Positions 5,660 through 18,027 of a DNA stretch of 64,000 nucleotides are shown here, piece by piece (the stretch's first letter is position 1; each line of letters opens with the position of its first letter). A model generated the notes under the pieces. The model did not search any database and was not told the DNA's origin. It saw nothing but the letters and a program-made list of their open reading frames with translations. The position numbers and the translations under genes were made by a program. The DNA is from an uncultured Moraxella sp. (GTDB lineage Bacteria > Pseudomonadota > Gammaproteobacteria > Pseudomonadales > Moraxellaceae): assembly GCF_945873075.1 (NCBI RefSeq), contig NZ_CAMCBS010000002.1, positions 62,001 to 126,000 on the forward strand. Direction: 5' to 3'.

Positions 5660-7021
5660 ATGAATGCAACACCTGTAAAACCAATCATTGATGCGACCAA
5701 TGAATACTACCTAACTCGTCAAAACGAGATGGAGTCCAATGTCCGCAGTTACCCACGCAAACTGCCATTGGCAATCGCCAAAGCGCAAGGTTGCTGGATT
5801 ACCGATGTCGAGGGCAATGAGTACCTTGACTGCTTAGCTGGCGCAGGCACACTTGCTCTAGGGCATAACCATCCTGCCACGATTAACGCCATCAAAGATG
5901 TATTGGAAAGCGGGTTGCCATTGCATACCCTTGACATCACAACGCCGATTAAAGATGCGTTTACCGAGAAGTTGTTGTCATTTTTCCCACAAGACTTTGT
6001 CCTACAGTTCTGCGGTCCAACCGGTGCTGACGGCACAGAAGCTGCGATTAAACTTGCCAAGACTTATACAGGTCGTGATAATGTCATCGCCTTTAGCGGT
6101 GGCTATCATGGCATGACGCATGGCTCGCTTGCCATGACAGGCAACCTATCTGCCAAAGAAAAAGTCGGCAATCTGATGGCAGGCGTGCAGTTCATGCCAT
6201 ATCCACACGAATACCGTTGCCCATTGGGTCTAGGCGGTGAAGCAGGCGTGGATGCCTTGACTTATTATTTTGAGAATTTCATCGAAGATGTCGAAAGCGG
6301 TGTGGTCAAGCCTGCTGCGGTCATCCTAGAGGCCATCCAGGGTGAGGGTGGTGTCGTCCCAGCCCCTGCCAAATGGCTACAAAAAATCCGTGAAGTCACT
6401 GCCAAGCATGACATCGTGCTTATCCTAGATGAAGTCCAAGCAGGTTTTGCGCGCTCGGGCAAGATGTTCGCCTTTGAACACGCAGGCATCACCCCTGATG
6501 TGGTGGTGATGAGTAAGGCAGTGGGTGGCGGTCTGCCACTGTGCGTCCTTGCGATTAATAAGAAATTTGACGCATGGGCACCAGCAGGCCATACAGGCAC
6601 ATTCCGTGGCAATCAGCTAGCGATGGCGGCAGGCTACAATGTCCTAGAAGAAATCACCAAAAACAACCTAGCTGAGAACTCACGCATCCAAGGCGAGTTC
6701 TTACGCAGTGAATTAAAGAAAATCGCCGAAGAATATCCATGCATCGGCCATGTGCGTGGTCGTGGTCTGATGACAGGTATCGAAATCGTCGATGAGCGTA
6801 AGCCTGCCGACCACATGGGTTCATATCCTGCTGACGGCGAGCTTGCCGCTGCTATCCAAAAAGCCTGCTTTGATAATAAGCTACTACTTGAGCGTGGCGG
6901 TCGTGGCGGTACAGTAGTGCGTCTGCTTTGCCCAATCACCATCACCGCTGATGAGTGCAACGAGGTTATCGCACGCTTCAAAAAAGCCGTCGGCGAAGCA
7001 TTGCAGGCGGTGCGTGGCTGA
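5660..7021 (+). CDS. dat: L-2,4-diaminobutyrate:2-oxoglutarate aminotransferase
   Basis: Class III PLP aminotransferase that makes L-2,4-diaminobutyrate from aspartate semialdehyde; Ddc then decarboxylates this to 1,3-diaminopropane. The 453 residues match Acinetobacter Dat. Seen: [12 protein letters not shown] near the N-terminus, [12 protein letters not shown] (PLP phosphate binding), GGYHGMTHG, the [12 protein letters not shown] aspartate region, and the Schiff-base lysine in MSKAVGGG (Lys286). The gene has its own terminator at 7051-7089. In Acinetobacter and relatives ddc follows immediately, but here a 9.3-kb restriction island intervenes before ddc at 16483. EctB of ectoine synthesis is a relative, but no ectABC genes are present. 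Confidence 0.93.
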
Positions 7022-7050
7022 TTCATCTGATTAAATCAAAGCACTGAACA

Positions 7051-7087
7051 AATAAGGCTTGGCATCTGATGCTAAGCCTTATTTTTA
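7051..7087 (+). terminator. Terminator after dat
   Basis: The stem AATAAGGCTT (7051-7060) pairs with AAGCCTTATT (7074-7083), extended inward by GGCAT/ATGCT, and is followed by Ts. It separates dat transcription from the downstream hsd operon. Confidence 0.8.
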
Positions 7088-7094
7088 TGATTTT

Positions 7095-7106
7095 TTATGC
7101 TACAAT
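7095..7106 (+). promoter_or_regulatory. Extended -10 promoter of the hsd operon; left copy of a 12-bp repeat
   Basis: TTATGCTACAAT lies 41 bp before hsdM. It has the extended -10 form TG-N-TACAAT and is identical to the element before ddc (16437-16448), so the two copies bracket the restriction island. Confidence 0.5.
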
Positions 7107-7147
7107 GATATTATTTAATCTATTGAAATGTATCTAAGGAATCTATC

Positions 7148-8695
7148 ATGACAAATATGCAACAACGCGCCGAACTTCACCGCCGTATCTGGCAAATCGC
7201 CAACGATGTCCGTGGCTCTGTGGATGGTTGGGATTTTAAGCAATATGTCTTGGGGGCGTTATTTTATCGCTTTATCAGTGAGAATTTTGCCGATTATATT
7301 GAAGCAGGGGATGACAGCGTTGATTATGCAAGCTTTGATGATGCCAATCCTATCTTGGACGCCATCAAAGATGACACGATCAAGGCCAAAGGATTTTTTA
7401 TTTATCCAAGCCAGTTATTTGTTAATGTCGCCAAAACCGCCCACACCAATCCAGATCTGAACACCGATTTGGCAAATATCTTTATGGCTATCGAATCATC
7501 TGCCAGTGGCTATGCATCCGAAGATGACATCAAGGGTTTGTTCGCTGACTTTGATACCACCAGTAACCGCTTGGGTAATACCGTGGCGGATAAAAACAAG
7601 CGATTGACAGCGGTGCTAAAAGGCGTGGCTGAACTGGATTTTGGGGATTTTAGTGACAACCAAATCGATCTATTTGGTGATGCTTATGAGTTTTTGATTT
7701 CCAATTATGCTGCCAATGCCGGCAAATCAGGCGGTGAGTTCTTCACGCCGCAGCATGTCTCCAAGCTGATTGCCAAATTGGCACTGTACGGCAAAAACAA
7801 GGTCAATAAAATCTATGACCCTGCTTGTGGATCGGGTTCGCTACTACTACAAGCCAAAAAGCAGTTCGATGAGCATATCATCGAAGAAGGATTCTTTGGG
7901 CAAGAGATTAACCATACGACTTATAACCTAGCTCGTATGAATATGTTTTTGCACAATATCAATTATGATAAATTTCATATTGAGCTGGGTGATACACTGC
8001 TAAATCCACAGCTTCAAAACGATAAGCCATTCGACGCCATCGTCTCCAATCCCCCATATTCGGTGAAATGGATTGGTTCTGATGATCCCGTGCTGATTAA
8101 TGATGAGCGTTTTGCGCCAGCTGGGGTGTTGGCGCCGAAGTCCAAGGCGGATTTTGCGTTTATCCTACATGCGCTCAATTATTTGTCTGCCAAAGGGCGT
8201 GCGGCGATCGTCTCATTCCCGGGGATTTTTTATCGGGGTGGGGCAGAAGCCAAGATTCGTCAGTATCTGGTGGATAATAACTATGTCGAGACGGTGATTG
8301 CGCTTGCACCGAATTTGTTCTTTGGGACATCGATTGCGGTGAATATTTTGGTGCTTAATAAGGGCAAGACCAATGATAACCGTGTTCAGTTTATCGATGC
8401 CAGTGAGTTATTCAAAAAAGAAACCAATAACAACATCTTAACCGATGAGCATATCGATACCATCATGACTCTATTCGCTGATAAAGTCGATGTCGCCCAT
8501 CAAGTGGCGATGGTAGATTATGATGCCATTAAGGCCAATGATTATAATCTGGCGGTCTCAAGCTATGTCGAAGCCAAAGACACTCGTGAAGTGATCGATA
8601 TCAGCGTGCTCAATAGCGAAATCAAAACCACCGTCGCCAAGATCGATACGCTACGCCGTCAGATTGATGAAATTATTGAACAGATTGAGGCATAA
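7148..8695 (+). CDS. hsdM: Type I restriction-modification system DNA methyltransferase subunit HsdM
   Basis: N6-adenine methyltransferase subunit that forms M2S and, with HsdR, R2M2S complexes. The 515-residue product begins with the HsdM N-terminal helical domain ([14 protein letters not shown]). The SAM-binding motif [11 protein letters not shown] is at about residues 224-233 and the catalytic motif IV NPPY at 301-304. [14 protein letters not shown] is the conserved entry into the methylase core. Length and motif order are intact, so it should be active. It is the first gene of the island, has its own promoter, and hsdS1 follows after 2 bp. Confidence 0.97.
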
Positions 8696-8697
8696 CT

Positions 8698-9870
8698 ATG
8701 CAACCATTTTTACAACAGTTATTAGCAGGGCAGACGGTGGAATGGAAGCCGTTGGGAGATTTAGCTGTTATAAAAACAGGTCAGGCTGTAAGTAAGCAGA
8801 TGATTTCTGATAATAGTGGACAATACCCAGTTATCAATAGCGGCAGAGAGCCTTTAGGATTTATTGACACATGGAATACAGACAATGACCCGATAGGAAT
8901 TACAACTCGTGGAGCGGGTGTAGGGTCAATTACATGGCAAGAGGGTAGATATTATCGAGGCAATTTAAACTATTCTGTCACCATTAAAGATAATTTACAA
9001 TTAAATGTAAGATATTTATATCATGTACTTTTGCAATTTCAGCATGAAATTCATGCATTATGTAGCTTTTCAGGAATTCCTGCATTAAATGCAAGTGAAT
9101 TAAAAAAATTATACATCCCAATCCCGCCCCTATCCGTACAAACTAAAATTGCCCAAATTTTGGACACATTTACCGCTATCACCGCTGAGCTCACCGCTGA
9201 GCTTAACATAAGAAATCAACAATATCAATACTATAGAGATAAATTATTATCTGTTGATGAATTGGCAAAAGTTGGGTTTGAGTGGAAGACTTTGGGAGAA
9301 ATTTGTCATTATGTTGATTATCGTGGAAAAACTCCCAATAAGGCGGAGAGTGGAATATATTTAGTTACGGCAAAAAATATTAAAAAAGGATTTATTGATT
9401 ACGAAGCATCCAAAGAGTATGTTCTTGAAAGTGAATATCAAGAAGTTATGAGAAGAGGTTTGCCAAAACTAGGAGATGTTTTAATTACAACAGAAGCCCC
9501 TTGTGGTCATGTTGCTCAAGTGGATAGAGAGGATATAGCGCTAGCGCAAAGAGTGATTAAATATTGCTCAAAGAATCCCAATGTTTTAAGTAATGATTTT
9601 TTAAAATTTGTTCTATTGGGTAAGTATTTCCAAAATGAACTAAGTAAATATGCCACTGGTGGAACAGTTAAAGGAATCAAGGGGAGTGTATTGCACAAAA
9701 TCGAAATCCCAATCCCACCCCTATCCGAACAAGTCCGAATTGTCGCTATTTTGGATAAATTTGAAACGCTGACCCAGCCCATCACCGAAGGCTTGCCCCG
9801 TGAGATTGAACTGCGCCAAAAGCAGTATGCGTATTATCGGGAGAGGTTGTTGGGGTTTTCAAGGATTTAA
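8698..9870 (+). CDS. hsdS: Type I restriction specificity subunit HsdS (first copy)
   Basis: DNA-recognition subunit of 390 residues with two target-recognition domains (about residues 20-140 and 195-335). These are separated by a central conserved helical region (IPPLSVQTKIAQILD ... QYQYYRDKLL), and a matching C-terminal one follows (IPPLSEQVRIVAILD ... QYAYYRERLL). The recognition domains are visibly AT-rich, as expected for shuffled modules. Conserved DNA blocks at 8728-8756 and 9712-9840 recur in hsdS2 at 15244-15272 and 16258-16386. The gene is complete. The bipartite target cannot be read from the sequence. Confidence 0.96.
   Translation: MQPFLQQLLAGQTVEWKPLGDLAVIKTGQAVSKQMISDNSGQYPVINSGREPLGFIDTWNTDNDPIGITTRGAGVGSITWQEGRYYRGNLNYSVTIKDNLQLNVRYLYHVLLQFQHEIHALCSFSGIPALNASELKKLYIPIPPLSVQTKIAQILDTFTAITAELTAELNIRNQQYQYYRDKLLSVDELAKVGFEWKTLGEICHYVDYRGKTPNKAESGIYLVTAKNIKKGFIDYEASKEYVLESEYQEVMRRGLPKLGDVLITTEAPCGHVAQVDREDIALAQRVIKYCSKNPNVLSNDFLKFVLLGKYFQNELSKYATGGTVKGIKGSVLHKIEIPIPPLSEQVRIVAILDKFETLTQPITEGLPREIELRQKQYAYYRERLLGFSRI
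9712..9840 (+). repeat. hsdS 3' conserved block, copy 1 (direct repeat with 16258-16386)
   Basis: A 129-bp stretch encoding the C-terminal conserved region of HsdS1 is highly similar to the same region of hsdS2, in direct orientation about 6.5 kb away. It is a possible substrate for homologous recombination or gene conversion. Confidence 0.8.
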
Positions 9871-9926
9871 GATGAGGTTCCTAAAAAACAACTGATAAAC
9901 ACTCTAAAATATAGGAGAGAATCATA

Positions 9927-12056
9927 ATGAAGGTTGATCTTACTGATAATGATTTATTTAACTTCAGTGAAATCGAATTTAACAAAAAAGTTAATTTTAT
10001 TTTTGGTAAAAATGGTTGTGGGAAGTCTACAATCACTAAATTGGTAAAAGATCAATGCAATGACTATGATGTTAGAGTATTTCAAGGATTTGAGAGTGTT
10101 ATTAGTGAAAATAATACTCTGGACACTGTTATTCTAGGAGAAGAAAATACTGAGATTAATCAAGAAATATCTAAAAAAGAAAACCAAATAGAGGGTATTA
10201 GAAAGGACATAGAATCCATTCGCAATAATCTCATCGATAATGGAACGGAAAATTTATGGAAAGAGTATAAGATAAAAGAAAAAGAAGTAGCAAATATAGA
10301 AAATGAGATTGATGATTTTTGCAGAAATAAAGCAAGAGAGATAAAAAATCATGGTTTGAAGATATCTTCAACATCATATGATATTGGATCATTTAAACAT
10401 GATATACCATATGCCAAAGGTTTGGAAATTCAAGATATTGAAAAGCTTGAATCATTGCTGAGGTCTGAAGTTAAATCAGCTCAAATAATAAATAAACTAA
10501 ACATCAATCTAAGTAATGAATTAAAGGATGTAAATACATTGCTTCAAGGAAAAGTTGTAGAAAAAACGAGATTAAGTCGTTTGGATGACAACGCTCAAAA
10601 AAGAGATTTTGCTGAAAAAGGATTAAGCTTACATCAAGCAGGAGAACAATGTGCTTTTTGTAATAATATTGTTTCAAAAGAAACATTAGCAGAACTAGAG
10701 AGTTATTTTTCAGCAGATGATGTGAGAAATTTTAAACATGAGATAGAAAATAAAATTAAAGAGTTAGAGTCTTATATCAGCGATGTTCAAAACATCAGTA
10801 TAGATAGCTCCAAATTTTACGCTGACTACAAATCCGATATTGATGAAATCAACCATAAATTAGGAGACTTAAAAAATGAATATGAAATTTTTTTAAATAA
10901 ATTGATTTCTGAATTAAACAATAAGTTGGCTTATTTATTTGAGGAGTGTGAAAAACTTGCTCTGACTTGTCCTGATGATATTAATTCCATCATTAATCAT
11001 TACAATCAGATTGTAGATGACAATAACAGTAGCAACTTAATAAAAAAACAAACGGGTGCTCGAGATGCTCTGCGTTATCACTTTGTGAAAGAGTATTGTG
11101 ATAAATTCCAATACGAAGCGAAAAAGTCTAACTTGGAAGTACATCAGAATCTGCTTCAAGTTTTAAAAAATAAAGTTGATGGTGAAGAATCAAAAATTAA
11201 AGCATGCCAAAATAATATCAACCAAATTGAAGAGAATATCAAGCAATTATTGGAAAGTACAAAAAATGAAAAAATTCTAGTTGAAAGAATAAATAAGAAA
11301 TTAAAACTTTATGCCAGTTTTGAGCTGATTCATCAAGAGACAAGCAATGATTATAAAGTCAGGTGCTTAAGAAATTTAAATATAAGAAGTGTTCAAGAGC
11401 TATCCACTGGAGAGAAAAACCTGATTGCTTTCTTGTATTTTATTGAGAAATTAAATGAATTGAGTAATAACTCTCATTCAAGTAAAAGATGTGTTGTTTT
11501 TGACGATCCAATGAATTCCAATGATGATGCGGTTCAGTATCTAATTATTGAAGAATTGCAGAGATTAAAAGATAGGCATCTTCGTGATAATGAGATATTT
11601 ATTTTATTAACACACAATATTCATTTTTATTTAAATGTAAAATATGGTTGCAAATATGATAAATGTAATTTTTATCGGCTGGTAAAAATTAAAAATCGTG
11701 TTAATTGTATTAATATAGATAATGGAGAAGACGATTTTAAAACAAACTATGCTGCACTTTGGCAGGAGTTACAGTTTCTTTTGAGTCAGGATGATGCTAG
11801 CCCAAATATGCTTTTAAATCCTATTAGAAGGATTATTGAAACTTATACTAAATTTAATGGATTGAATCAAAGTGATTTTTTTGCCAATACATCAGGTGCA
11901 AGAAAGTTATTCAATGTGAATTCTCATTCTATAGATGATTTAGAAGCCGAATTAAATGGAAGATCAAAACAAGAGATTATTGTGTTATTTAAAAGTTGTT
12001 TTGAAGAAAATAATGCTATAGCACATTTTCAGAAATTTTTTGGAGATAACCCATGA
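9927..12056 (+). CDS. RloC/PrrC-like AAA ATPase, putative anticodon nuclease embedded in the hsd operon
   Basis: The 709-residue protein has an SMC/Rad50-like layout: Walker [10 protein letters not shown] (27-35), long charged coiled coils, a CAFC (Cys242-Cys245) zinc-hook-like motif between the coils, more coiled coil, ABC signature LSTGEKN (492-498) and Walker B VVFDDP (523-528). The C-terminal part holds RRIIE (Arg634, Glu638) and His667, matching the Arg-x3-Glu ... His triad described for the PrrC and RloC anticodon nucleases. It sits between hsdS and hsdR, as prrC does in the E. coli prr locus. Its size and CxxC point to RloC rather than the shorter PrrC. It is strongly AT-rich compared with hsdM and hsdR, suggesting separate acquisition. 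A good ribosome site (AGGAGAG) precedes it, and its stop overlaps the hsdR start by 4 bp. Nuclease activity is inferred, not shown; a generic AAA_13 defence ATPase is the alternative. Confidence 0.75.
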
Positions 12057-15000
12057 CAACCCAAACCACCCCCATCACCGAAACCAATCACTTTATCGTA
12101 CTGGATAAATACGACAAGATCGAGCAAGTCAGCAGCTATCAGACCGAGAGCGAGATGGAGCGGGAGTTTATCAGCGATCTTGTGGAGCAGGGCTATGAAT
12201 ATCGCACCGATCTAACGACGCATGATAAACTACTTGCCAATGTCCGTGTACAGCTAGAGCGGCTGAATAATACCGCTTTTAGCGATGGTGAATGGCATCG
12301 CTTTGTGGCAGAATATCTGGATAAGCCCAGCGAGAATATGATCGAAAAAACTCGCAAACTGCACGATGACAGTGCTTATGATTTTGTGTTTGATAATGGC
12401 CGTATCCAAAACATTCATCTACTGGACAAGACCAATCTGGGCAATAATAAACTGCAAGTCATCCATCAGTTTGAGCAGACGGGTACGAGTACGAACCGCT
12501 ATGATGTCACCATCTTGGTCAATGGTTTACCGATTGTGCAGATCGAACTCAAAAAACGCGGCGTCGCCATTCGTGAAGCGTTTAATCAAATTCATCGCTA
12601 TTCCAAAGAAAGCTTTAATAAAGAAAATTCGCTGTTCAAATACCTACAGATTTTTATCATCAGTAACGGCACCAACACCCGCTATTTTGCCAATACCACC
12701 AAGCGAGAGAAGAACAGCTATGACTTTACCATGAACTGGGCAAGGGCGGATAATATTCCCATTAAAGATCTTAAGGACTTTACCGCCACCTTTTTTGCCA
12801 AGAATACTTTACTCAATGTCTTAATCAAATACTGCGTGTTTGACAGCAGTAACACCTTGCTGATTTTGCGCCCCTATCAGATTGCGGCGGCGGAGCGGAT
12901 TTTGTGGAAAATCAGCAGTTCGTATAATACCAAAAACTACAGCAACCCAACCAGTGGCGGCTATATCTGGCATACCACAGGCTCGGGCAAGACCTTGACG
13001 AGCTTTAAGACAGCACGGCTAGCCACAGCGTTACCATTTATCAAAAAAGTGTTCTTTGTGGTGGATAGAAAGGATCTGGACTATCAGACCATGAAAGAAT
13101 ATCAACGCTTTAGCCCTGATAGTGTCAATGGCTCGGACAGCACCAAAGGGCTAAAAGCTAATATTGAACTAGATGACAATAAAATCATCGTCACCACGAT
13201 CCAAAAGCTCAATAATCTCATGAAATCCGAGCATAATTTGAATATTTATGATGAGCCTGTGGTGTTTATTTTTGATGAATGCCATCGCTCGCAGTTTGGC
13301 GAAGCCCAAAAGAACCTTAGCAAGCGGTTCAAGAAATTTTGTCAATTTGGCTTTACAGGTACGCCGATTTTCCCAAAAAATGCCATCGGAGCCGAGACGA
13401 CCGCCAGCGTCTTTGGCGAACAGCTGCATTCTTATGTCATCACCGATGCCATCCGTGATGAAAAGGTGCTCAAGTTCAAGGTGGATTATCATAATGTCCT
13501 GCCGAAGTTTAAAACTGATGAAAACGAGCAAGATCTCACCAAGCTATCAGCCGTCGAGAACCGCAAAGCACTGATGCACCCCGAGCGCATCCGTGAAGTC
13601 AGCAGCTATATTTTGGACAGATTCCACCAAAAAACGCATCGTAATAACGCCACAGGCAAGGGCTTTAATGCGATGTTTGCCGTCAGTAGCGTCGATGCTG
13701 CCAAGCTATACTATGAGACGCTCCATGAACTGCAAAAGAGCAGCGCTAAACCGCTAAAAATCGCCACCATTTTCTCATACGCTGCCAACGAAGAGCAGGA
13801 CGCCATCGGTGAGATCGAAGACGAAGGCTTTGAAGTCTCAGCGATGAATGCCAGTGCCAAAGAGTTCTTGACAAAGGTGATCGATGAGTATAATGCCGAA
13901 TTTAGAACCAACTTTAGTGTAGATAGTAAAGAGTTTCAAAACTACTACCGAGATTTGGCTAAGCGTGTCAAGGATCAAGAGATTGATTTACTTATCGTCG
14001 TCGGTATGTTTTTGACAGGCTTTGATGCACCAGCACTCAACACCTTGTTTGTGGACAAAAATTTACGCTATCATGGGCTGATCCAAGCCTATAGCCGTAC
14101 CAACCGCATCTATAACGCTACCAAGACCTTTGGCAATATCGTCACTTTCCGCAATCTAGAGCAGCCGACCATCGACGCCATCACGCTATTTGGCAATAAA
14201 AGCACTCGCCAAGTGGTGCTCGAGCAGCCGCTCAATAGCTATCTGGATGGCTATACTGATACGCTGTCAGGGCGTGCGCATCGTGGCTTTGTGGATATCG
14301 TCAATGAGCTGAACGAGCGATTTGGCGAGCCTGATAATATCATCACCGAAAAGGACAAAAAAGACTTCGCCAAGCTATTCGGCGAATATCTGCGTGCCGA
14401 AAATGCCCTACAAAACTTTGATGAATATCAAGCGATGATGGAGCTCAAACGCCTACCGCCCATCACCGATGAGACCGATGAAGTGGCAGCTGCTCACATC
14501 AGCCAAAGCATTCAAGACATCCAAAATAAATATCAGCTCGATGATGAAACTTTAGACAAATTACAAGCTATCCCATTGCCGAGCGAGCGCATGATACAGG
14601 ACTATCGTTCTACCTATAACGACATCCGTGACTGGAGTCGTCAGCAAAAACAGGGCGAAGAACAAGCCAAATCCACCATCAGCTGGGATGATGTGGTCTT
14701 TGAAGTGGATTTGTTAAAATCCCAAGAGATTAATTTGGATTATATCCTAGAGCTGATTTTTGAGCATAACAAAAAAACCAAGGATAAAGCCATCATCATC
14801 GATGAGATTCGCCGCCTGATTCGCTCAAGCTTCGACCATCGTGCCAAAGAAAGCTTGATTGTGGACTTTATCAATCAAACCGATCTGGATAACCTGCCCG
14901 ATAAAGCAGGCGTGATCGAAGCCTTTTATCAATTCGCCCAAGGTGAGCAGAAAAAAGAAGCCGATGAGCTCATCACTGATGAGAATCTCAACAGCGATGC

Positions 15001-15208
15001 TGCCTTGCGCTATATCGCCACATCATTGAAGCGTGAATACGCCAGCGAAAACGGCACAGAATTGAACGACATCTTACCAAAAATGAGCCCGCTCAATCCG
15101 CAATATCTCACCAAAAAACAAAGCGTGTTCCAAAAAATCGCCCAGTTTGTGGAGAAATTTAAGGGTATTGGTAATTTAAATGGGTTATTAAATAAGGAAA
15201 ATGACTGA
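12053..15208 (+). CDS. hsdR: Type I restriction enzyme endonuclease/translocase subunit HsdR
   Basis: Motor and cleavage subunit of 1051 residues. It has an N-terminal PD-(D/E)xK nuclease domain with the IELKK motif (164-168), then SF2 helicase motifs I TTGSGKT (GSGKT at 310-314) and II DECH (408-411), the TGTPIF motif III region, and later QAYSRTNR (motif VI). A C-terminal helical domain completes the protein. Length is normal for the family and no disruption is seen. Its ATG overlaps the stop of the RloC-like gene (ATGA), and its own stop overlaps the hsdS2 start, so the locus is one translationally coupled operon. Confidence 0.96.
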
Positions 15209-16407
15209 TGGCACAACATCCGTTTTTAGAAAACTTACTCAATGGGCAGACGGTGGAGTGGAAGCCGTTGGGTGAAGTGGCTGTTATAGGCACAGGAAGC
15301 TCAAATCGCCAAGATGAAAGTGAAAATGGAGATTATCCATTTTATGTCCGCTCAAAAAATGTTTTGCGCTCTAATAGTTATCAGTTTGATGAAACCGCCA
15401 TTGTTATTCCAGGTGAGGGAGGTATTGGTGATATTTTTCATTATGTGGAGGGTAAGTATGCCTTACATCAAAGAGCGTACAGAATTTGCATTCATGATGA
15501 GAACGTTAATACTAAGTTTTTATATCATGTTATGAGTCAAAGTTTTAAACAATACATATTGTCAAAAAGCGTGGGTGCAACTGCTACATCAATCAGAAAA
15601 CCAATGCTAGAAAAATTTCTAATTCCAATTCCGCCTCTATCCGCGCAAATTGAAATTGTAAGGATGTTGGATGTAATAAACGATTTGCTTGATGAATTAA
15701 AAAGTGAACTAAATTTACGCCAAAAACAATATCAATATTATCGTGATAAACTCTTGACATTTGATGCTGAAGCCGTACAATCCTTGGCGACAGCGAGCGA
15801 CAGCAGGACAGTGGTGTGGAAGACTTTGGGTGAAGTTAGCGAAGTCACTAAATTGGCTGGATTTGAGTTTACAAACTATGTTCAATATAGCGAACAAGGA
15901 ACAATTATCGCCTTGCGTGGACTGAATGTGAAGGGGAGACTTGATTTAAATGATGTGAAATATATAGATAATAGTGATTTTTCAAAGTTGAATCGCAGTA
16001 AGCTTTTTATAGATGATGTTTTATTTACTTATGTCGGCACTGTGGGTAATGTTGCTTTAATTCCTGAAAATGACAAGTACTATTTAGCACCAAATGTCGC
16101 AAGAATTAGATTTTTAGATAAGAACCAAGTGCACCCTAGGTTTGTGCTGTATTATTTTCAAACCACTTTTTTTCAGTCAAAGCAAATTGGAAAATATTTA
16201 AGTTCATCATCTATGAAAAATCTAACGATGGAAAATATTAGAAAATTTAAAATCCCCATCCCACCCCTATCCGAACAAGCCCGAATTGTCGCTATTTTGG
16301 ATAAATTTGATAAGCTGACCCAGTCCATCACCGAGGGCTTGCCCCGTGAGATCGAACTGCGTCAAAAGCAGTATGAGTATTATCGAGAAGCTTTGTTGTC
16401 GTTTTGA
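15208..16407 (+). CDS. hsdS: Type I restriction specificity subunit HsdS (second copy)
   Basis: A second complete 399-residue specificity subunit at the end of the same operon. It opens with the same conserved segment as HsdS1 (NGQTVEWKPLGE) and has a central conserved region (IPPLSAQIEIVRMLD ... QYQYYRDKLL) and a near-identical C-terminal one (IPPLSEQARIVAILD). Both recognition domains differ from those of HsdS1, so a different target is expected. Having two hsdS genes with one hsdM and one hsdR suggests alternative or simultaneous specificities. The start overlaps the hsdR stop codon (TGATG), and the gene ends 75 bp before ddc. Confidence 0.95.
   Translation: MAQHPFLENLLNGQTVEWKPLGEVAVIGTGSSNRQDESENGDYPFYVRSKNVLRSNSYQFDETAIVIPGEGGIGDIFHYVEGKYALHQRAYRICIHDENVNTKFLYHVMSQSFKQYILSKSVGATATSIRKPMLEKFLIPIPPLSAQIEIVRMLDVINDLLDELKSELNLRQKQYQYYRDKLLTFDAEAVQSLATASDSRTVVWKTLGEVSEVTKLAGFEFTNYVQYSEQGTIIALRGLNVKGRLDLNDVKYIDNSDFSKLNRSKLFIDDVLFTYVGTVGNVALIPENDKYYLAPNVARIRFLDKNQVHPRFVLYYFQTTFFQSKQIGKYLSSSSMKNLTMENIRKFKIPIPPLSEQARIVAILDKFDKLTQSITEGLPREIELRQKQYEYYREALLSF
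16258..16386 (+). repeat. hsdS 3' conserved block, copy 2
   Basis: Direct-repeat partner of 9712-9840, with only scattered substitutions between the two copies over 129 bp. Confidence 0.8.
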
Positions 16408-16436
16408 TGTAGGGTGGATGTCTAAGCATAGCCAAA

Positions 16437-16448
16437 TTATGCTACAAT
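16437..16448 (+). promoter_or_regulatory. Extended -10 promoter of ddc; right copy of the 12-bp repeat
   Basis: TTATGCTACAAT with the extended -10 form, 34 bp before ddc. It gives ddc its own promoter downstream of the restriction island and is identical to 7095-7106. Confidence 0.5.
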
Positions 16449-16482
16449 AGCCCTATTTTCACCAACTAGGAAATCCTGCGTT

Positions 16483-18027
16483 ATGCCAACTTTTGACCAA
16501 CATAAACAAGCCCTACTGTGCAACGATGCTCAATCCATCGCCGATTATGAATCAGCGATGGCACAGGCAACTCAAGCCGTCGCCAACTGGCTAAAAAACG
16601 ACAAAATGTACACCGGCGGTAGCATTAAGCAACTTCGTTCAGAAATCGCTTTTGAGCCGACCAAAGAAGGCTTGGGCGTGCACGCATCGCTTGAGCGACT
16701 TGTTGAGCTGTTTTTGAATAAAAGCCTGAAGGTGCATCATCCGCATTCATTGGCGCATCTGCATTGCCCAACGATGGTAACAAGCCAAATCGCTGAAGTG
16801 CTCATCAATGCCACCAACCAATCGATGGACTCATGGGATCAAAGCCCAGCAGGTTCATTGATGGAAGTGCAGCTGATTGACTGGCTACGCCAAAAAGTCG
16901 GCTATGGTAGCGGTACGGCTGGCGTCTTTACTTCAGGTGGTACGCAGTCGAACTTGATGGGTGTGCTGCTGGCCCGTGATTGGTGCATCGCCAAAAACTA
17001 CCAAAATAGCGACGGACAAGCATGGTCTGTACAGCGTGATGGCATCCCTGCCGATGCCATGCAAAAGGTGAAAGTCATCTGCTCAGAAAATGCCCATTTT
17101 AGCGTCCAAAAAAACATGGCAATGATGGGTATGGGATTTCAATCGGTTGTTACAGTACCTGTGAATGAAAATGCTCAAATGGATGTGGTTGCATTAGAAA
17201 AAACCATGCAAGCACTGCAAGATGATGGTAAAATCATCGCCTGTGTGGTAGCAACCGCAGGCACGACCGATGCTGGTGCGATTGATGATCTAAAGGCGGT
17301 GCGTGCATTGACCGATAAATTTGGCGCGTGGATGCATATTGATGCGGCATGGGGCGGGGCGTTATTATTGTCCAATGACTACCGTGATATGCTTGATGGC
17401 ATTGAGTTATCTGATTCGGTGACGCTGGATTTTCATAAGCACTTTTTTCAAAGTATCTCATGCGGTGCGTTCCTACTAAAAGATGAGCAAAATTATCGCT
17501 TTATGCACTATGAAGCAGAATATCTGAACTCTGCTTATGACGAAGAGCATGGCGTGCCAAACCTTGTTTCTAAGTCATTGCAAACCACACGCCGTTTTGA
17601 TGCATTAAAACTGTGGATGACCATCGAAGCTTTGGGCGAAGAGCTGTACGGCTCAATGATTGACCACGGGGTGAAGCTGACTCGTCAAGTGGCGGATTAT
17701 ATCAAGGCGACCGATGGGCTTGAGCTATTGGTTGAGCCACAGTTTGCATCAGTGCTGTTCCGTGTCGTGCCAGCGGGGTATCCTGCCGAGTTTATCGACA
17801 GTCTGAACCAAAATGTCGCTGATGAGCTGTTTGCCCGTGGTGAAGCCAATATCGGCGTGACTCGGGTGATTGATGCTCGCCAAGATGTGCAGTCGCTGAA
17901 GATGACTACACTTAGCCCTGTGGCGACGCTTGAAAATGTCCAAGCGCTACTTGCTCAAGTGCTCAAAGAAGCCGAACGCATCAAAGATGACATCGCAAGC
18001 GGTAACTACACACCGCCGATTGACTGA
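16483..18027 (+). CDS. ddc: L-2,4-diaminobutyrate decarboxylase
   Basis: Group II PLP-dependent decarboxylase producing 1,3-diaminopropane from L-2,4-diaminobutyrate. The 514 residues match the Acinetobacter enzyme. Seen: [12 protein letters not shown] near residue 87, [14 protein letters not shown] (PLP binding), [14 protein letters not shown], the IDAAWGGA aspartate motif and the Schiff-base lysine in LDFHKHFFQ (Lys319). Its functional partner dat lies 9.5 kb upstream beyond the restriction island, and its own extended -10 promoter should keep it expressed independently. A strong terminator follows. Confidence 0.95.

Follow-up and report, generated by a model that had tools for sequence, protein, structure and literature searches.

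RloC and PrrC are the closest described relatives of the gene considered here, a rloC-like gene at 9927..12056 of a 64,000-nucleotide stretch of DNA from an uncultured Moraxella sp. (the window, meaning throughout the whole stretch analysed). RloC is an anticodon nuclease that excises the wobble base in response to DNA ends. RloC proteins, of 658-897 amino acids (aa) according to PMC2610378, are split ABC-ATPases with a CX2C motif in a helical insert and a C-terminal domain that carries R-X3-E and a His often placed after a Ser; the consensus of Davidov and Kaufmann (PMC2610378) reads R-X3-E-X36-52-H. The name rlo stands for restriction-linked open reading frame (ORF). PMC2610378 also reports that replacing any one of the triad residues by alanine left the G. 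kaustophilus RloC without activity, already describes RloC-like genes inside type I restriction-modification (R-M) loci and places eight of 72 RloCs in a locus of type I or III. As far as the account in PMC3874168 goes, inducers of DNA double-strand breaks (DSBs) activate RloC both in A. baylyi and in heterologous hosts, the A. baylyi protein is not silenced by its R-M protein, and the authors leave regulation during infection open. PrrC, a known tRNA-cutting enzyme of 341-416 aa that lacks a coiled-coil insert and is encoded between hsdS and hsdR of a type IC R-M operon, serves as second-line defence once restriction has been inhibited.

A first-pass annotation of the window, made from the letters alone, had read the gene as a RloC/PrrC-like candidate anticodon nuclease (ACNase) in a prr-type operon, uniting RloC architecture with the operon position of PrrC, and had assigned it the second-line role of the latter. 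This interpretation is upheld in part: the candidate ACNase and its operon position stand, while the novelty of the combination does not. Motifs, conservation and the register with PrrC make the assignment as a RloC/PrrC-like candidate ACNase well supported. More specifically, judging from sequence, we consider it probable (about 0.72) that the gene encodes a RloC-like tRNA (anticodon-loop) nuclease, carried as a foreign cassette of low guanine-plus-cytosine (GC) content in the hsdS-hsdR slot of a type IC-like R-M operon.

Architecture and conservation of the RloC-like protein

The gene and its motifs are as follows, all on the + strand.

9927..12056, +: rloC-like gene coding for 709 aa; the product is an ABC-ATPase with a CxxC hook and, at its C-terminus, a putative ACNase (HEPN-like) domain (ORF; PF13166, 3.1e-82; PADLOC PDC-S06, 2e-249; AlphaFold2 (AF2) mean predicted local distance difference test score (pLDDT) 86.8)
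10005..10031, +: Walker A, residues 27-35, GKNGCGKST (sequence check)
10650..10661, +: CAFC zinc-hook-like motif, residues 242-245 (both Cys in 138/138 homologues)
11400..11420, +: ABC signature LSTGEKN, residues 492-498 (sequence check)
11502..11507, +: Walker B, D526 and D527 (138/138 homologues)
11712..12053, +: putative anticodon-nuclease domain, helical and C-terminal, residues 596-709
11826..11840, +: R634-x3-E638 of the putative catalytic triad (R in 135/138, E in 133/138)
11925..11927, +: H667 of the putative triad, in NSHS (H in 107/138)

A script verified G27, T35, C242, C245, D526, D527, R634, E638, S666 and H667, confirming the length and the motif positions of the first-pass annotation (Walker A, CAFC, LSTGEKN, DD and R634/E638/H667). 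The PF13166 match spans residues 11-692, and the PADLOC candidate PDC-S06 (model PDLC04897) matches the protein over its full length. The PADLOC PrrC model is not among the 13 families matching the window protein at E<=1e-3 and gave no match at that threshold in the window's own genome. In the AF2 model, helices flank residues 242-245 on both sides, R634 and E638 lie on helix 626-643, and H667 is found just past helix 656-664. Rad50, SMC and retron/PtuA ATPases head the fold matches of the protein; the C-terminal domain alone yields weak fold matches only, HEPN by fold included. A PDB sequence search with the single protein returned nothing relevant. The family profile matched AriA, Rad50, SMC and ABC-F heads along with many coiled coils, for example myosin, and no chain named RloC or PrrC was among the best 60 of its 187 PDB matches. 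The best of these, at 4e-7, is AriA of PARIS, which has a related ATPase head. To our knowledge, AriA lacks a C-terminal nuclease. It acts with a separate Toprim effector, AriB, according to PMC12409363.

Like RloC, the window protein is a split ABC-ATPase with CX2C in a helical insert, its 709 aa are within the published length range, and R634, E638, S666 and H667 reproduce the R-X3-E and Ser-His of the RloC C-terminal domain. The E-to-H gap, counted in the sequence, is however 28, outside the 36-52 of RloC. We therefore call the protein RloC-like rather than RloC, because its spacing departs from one published RloC feature.

Conservation was assessed on 166 blastp matches, reduced to 153 of at least 600 aa, to 151 without two copies of the window protein and to 138 without near-copies. 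The two hook cysteines, C242 and C245, are invariant (138 each), R634 is kept in 135 and E638 in 133 (with Asp in four more), and H667 in 107, so the proposed Arg-Glu-His residues are indeed conserved. Since the homologues were gathered by Walker-region patterns or tblastn and not by the triad, this conservation is not an artefact of chance or selection. N631 (11817-11819) and H700 (12024-12026) are conserved about as well, in 132/138 and 113/138.

In the 107 homologues with both E/D and H, the gap measures 36-45 residues in 98 and either 26 or 28 in the other nine. All nine short-gap proteins belong to the ten closest homologues of the window protein, the tenth, L012, having a gap of 39. These ten are 27-41% identical to it and come from eight Lactobacillales, one TM7 and one viral contig; together with the window protein they form one branch with support of 99/96 in a 61-row tree, and all eleven keep R, E and S-H. 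The short gap amounts to two changes on a FastTree of 139 rows, and this sequence-defined clade is worth keeping as a finding.

Of the 31 homologues that lack the His, 24 lie on viral contigs, six on Bacillota contigs and one in a phage record; the 139-row FastTree explains the difference by one change. They include the phage protein Javan105, labelled RloC by its depositor, which matches the same candidate-defence family PDC-S06 and is 21% identical to the window protein. Such proteins may be inactive or may use another catalytic residue. The group, with L015, L032, L049, L055, L084 and L106 among its members, keeps CxxC and mostly keeps R-x3-E.

Likeness to PrrC emerged in profile comparison. 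With hhalign, the family profile (62 rows) matched that of 16 PrrC proteins with a probability of 98.2 and an E-value of 4e-14 over 195 columns, covering the ATPase core and the C-terminal domain. This alignment places RRIIE of the window protein on RNLYE of PrrC and NSHS on SSHS, setting R634, E638 and H667 on the R, E and H of PrrC, as the first-pass annotation had proposed from their spacing. The C-terminal domain alone matched in the same register (E 0.0028, probability 10.9). The gap in E. coli PrrC is 31 (residues 324 and 356), compared with 28 here, and the window protein, with its coiled coil and hook, is about twice as long as PrrC. The window shares with PrrC of EcoprrI the order hsdM-hsdS-X-hsdR, a type IC-like R-M system and the triad register.

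Two of 57 genomes searched gave a match at E<=1e-3. One is the genome of the window and the other G039 (22% identity), with none found in the 21 congeners searched; in a class sample, five of 274 matched, window included, the other four at 22-30% identity.

The hsdS-hsdR slot and its exchangeable cargo

At the same dat-ddc site, the congeners G006, G013 and G020 carry HsdM and HsdR proteins 72-95% identical to those of the window (72% for the HsdR of G020). Their hsdS-hsdR slots hold AlbA_2 in G006, Abi_2 in G013 and PrrC in G020 (PADLOC PrrC model, 2e-132), and in another congener, G010, about 0.1 kb lies between dat and ddc. DNA homology between the window and G006 ends at 9858, near the end of hsdS, and is found again from 12051 on, 2 bases ahead of the hsdR start. 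The rloC-like gene has a GC content of 28.5% (21.7% at third codon positions), hsdM 44.3%, hsdR 44.8%, the two hsdS genes 37% and the window 45.4%. Because of this low GC, the homology breaks and nearest kin that are mostly Lactobacillales, the gene looks like a cassette of foreign origin that occupies an exchangeable slot. Beside the short-gap clade, this clean natural swap of PrrC and a RloC-like gene in one operon chassis is the other finding worth keeping.

The slot was surveyed in 40 loci, namely the window, 9, 21 and 8 loci from HsdR searches and G017 from an HsdM search. The sample represents one HsdR subfamily in sampled Gammaproteobacteria-level groups and is no census; G011, G035, G007, G010, G034, G053 and G134, with partial or less similar HsdR, were left out. 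By tblastn, 36 of the 40 have hsdM, an upstream hsdS and hsdR, some with broken genes, and we set aside L268 (hsdM outside the stretch) and L279, L283 and L284 (parts not found). In 35 of the 36, hsdS and hsdR are separated by an ORF of 90 aa or more on the same strand, with none in L263, and an identified family occupies the slot in 33, L212 and L282 having remnants or unclassified ORFs only. The contents are PrrC in 18, RhuM in 16 (one a 93-aa fragment), SoFic-like/Fic in six (one a 141-aa fragment), AlbA_2 in three, and Abi_2, an M78 peptidase with DUF4411 and the RloC-like gene in one each, the last in the window only. Five of the 18 PrrC proteins matched the PADLOC model at 1e-128 or better and the other 13 were called by blastp clustering at 1e-8 and alignment; all 18 keep R-x3-E and the His in the alignment. 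The prr-type position of the window gene is supported by the PrrC genes that occupy the same slot in related loci, and the hsdS-hsdR gap is a cargo slot for accessory genes.

Eleven type IC-like loci have PrrC together with a RhuM or SoFic-like gene in the slot (L209, L258, L261, L262, L269, L270, L272, L277, L278, L280 and L281), possibly a two-effector cassette.

Variable cargo at this site has precedents in other hosts and with other contents: rlo ORFs lie between hsdS and hsdR in C. jejuni hsd loci (PMC5183652; PMC2610378), DarTG2 occupies the position in enteropathogenic Escherichia coli, where the site is remarked on as a possible hotspot (PMC12255303), and PMC3710099 mentions R-M operons that contain HEPN, RhuM-like and Fic/Doc genes. 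Among the matches listed, drawn from open PMC papers, none treats the window locus or an exchange of PrrC and RloC.

Loci of homologues, 164 in all, were fetched and compared by tblastn with the Hsd proteins of the window, an approach that misses distant R-M families and short contigs; 22 have an Hsd match near the homologue. The rloC-like gene stands directly before hsdR in L077, L043 and L114, close after an hsdS in L051, L071 and L005, and after hsdR in L025 and L112. A rloC-like gene in a type I locus is thus a recurring arrangement, and rlo genes in such loci are known in print. For these reasons the union of RloC architecture with the PrrC slot of a type IC-like operon, though genuine, is not new in kind and less novel than the first-pass annotation held.

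The operon and its flanking genes are listed below.

5660-7021: dat
7148..8695, +: hsdM, 515 aa, type I methyltransferase subunit (TIGR00497, 5e-200)
8698..9870, +: hsdS1, 390 aa, specificity subunit (PF01420, 3e-49)
12053..15208, +: hsdR, 1051 aa, EcoR124-type (type IC-like) restriction subunit (TIGR00348, 1e-192; EcoR124_C, 7e-67)
15208..16407, +: hsdS2, 399 aa, second specificity subunit (PF01420, 9e-46)
16483-18027: ddc

ORFs together with Pfam and NCBIfam identities confirm the order hsdM-hsdS-X-hsdR and its coordinates. By sequence, the R-M system is type I, and is labelled type IC-like because of the EcoR124_C match of its HsdR. All operon genes run in one direction, and the ATG of hsdR overlaps the stop of the rloC-like gene by 4 bases (ATGA). 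The first-pass annotation mentioned neither the second hsdS, which adjoins the 3' side of hsdR, nor the position of the entire hsd cluster between dat and ddc.

The two hsdS genes share direct repeats of 156 bp (90% identical) at the 3' end (9704-9859 and 16250-16405) and of 80 bp (77.5%) at the 5' end (8701-8780 and 15217-15296). These flank the rloC-like gene and hsdR, and recombination between them could delete both or reshuffle specificity. Specificity switching through the repeats was considered and set aside; direct repeats would delete, not invert.

The dat-ddc interval was viewed in the window (5660-18027) and in L204-L206, L215, L216, L217, L285 and L289. Within the genus it holds type I R-M genes in G000, G006, G013 and G020, and a methyltransferase and helicase pair, by eye a type III R-M system, in G001, G004 and G012 and, partially, in G007. 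The first gene of that pair begins, in G004 and G012, with a PTNQ repeat (a tetranucleotide repeat), hinting at possible phase variation.

Candidate activity and control

We envisage that the Rad50-like ABC-ATPase head and the CxxC-tipped coiled coil hold the C-terminal HEPN-type RNase domain off. Phage attack would release the domain with R634, E638 and H667, and the freed nuclease would stop translation in the infected cell. The cassette would have arrived in an accessory-gene slot of a type IC-like R-M operon that elsewhere belongs to PrrC or other genes. Candidate triggers are a loss of restriction, in the manner of PrrC, DNA ends, in the manner of RloC, or ends that arise from cutting by the R-M enzyme.

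Several observations weigh against a tRNA nuclease. The E-to-H gap is shorter than that of RloC, a His-less clade exists, the fold matches of the C-terminal domain are weak, and both PF13166 and PDC-S06 are broad, the latter a candidate label of the kind that PMC10855318 describes as found through embedding in known systems and unvalidated. They would fit a defence protein of the ABC-ATPase kind with a C-terminal domain other than an ACNase, acting on other RNA or without catalysis. We regard this as improbable, as R, E and S-H are all present, in the PrrC register, in the window protein and the ten homologues nearest to it.

Taking the gene to encode a RloC-like nuclease, its control may follow either relative. 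A Rad50-like head that senses DNA ends independently of R-M, with the operon providing co-expression and co-transfer only, comes close to an even chance in our judgement: the head and the invariant hook are congruent with it, as are the published activation of RloC by DSB inducers (PMC3874168) and the many homologue loci without a nearby Hsd match (all except 22 of 164, within the limits of sensitivity and flank length). The location of the gene inside the operon, with translational overlap, speaks for a closer tie however, and its C-terminal gap differs from that of typical RloC. The overlap with hsdR, the PrrC in half of the related operons and the PrrC of G020 at the very same dat-ddc site would rather suit a guard of the R-M system, in which HsdMSR keeps the protein latent and frees it in response to inhibition or inactivation of restriction by a phage. 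We treat such PrrC-type control as a tentative possibility. The ATPase, coiled coil and hook are of the RloC type and thought to form an internal switch, the protein has no PADLOC PrrC match at E<=1e-3, and the many unrelated genes found in the slot mean that residence there is no proof of a physical link. In addition, PMC3874168 indicates that R-M does not silence the A. baylyi RloC, although its authors leave regulation in infection undecided.

A bolder idea, which we deem unlikely, is that trigger logic itself has been swapped within one R-M chassis, with PrrC firing on blocked restriction and the window gene on the DSBs of the R-M enzyme, and that the short-gap clade forms a distinct class of ACNases directed at a tRNA target of their own. 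If true, the cuts made by the R-M enzyme in phage DNA would serve as the alarm signal for shutting down translation. R-M operons of this family regularly have an accessory gene in the hsdS-hsdR gap, and the window and G020 offer a natural setting for the question of RloC control by the R-M enzyme that PMC3874168 leaves open. Comparing PrrC and the RloC-like effector beside the same R-M proteins would separate silencing by R-M from the action of the effector's own ATPase.
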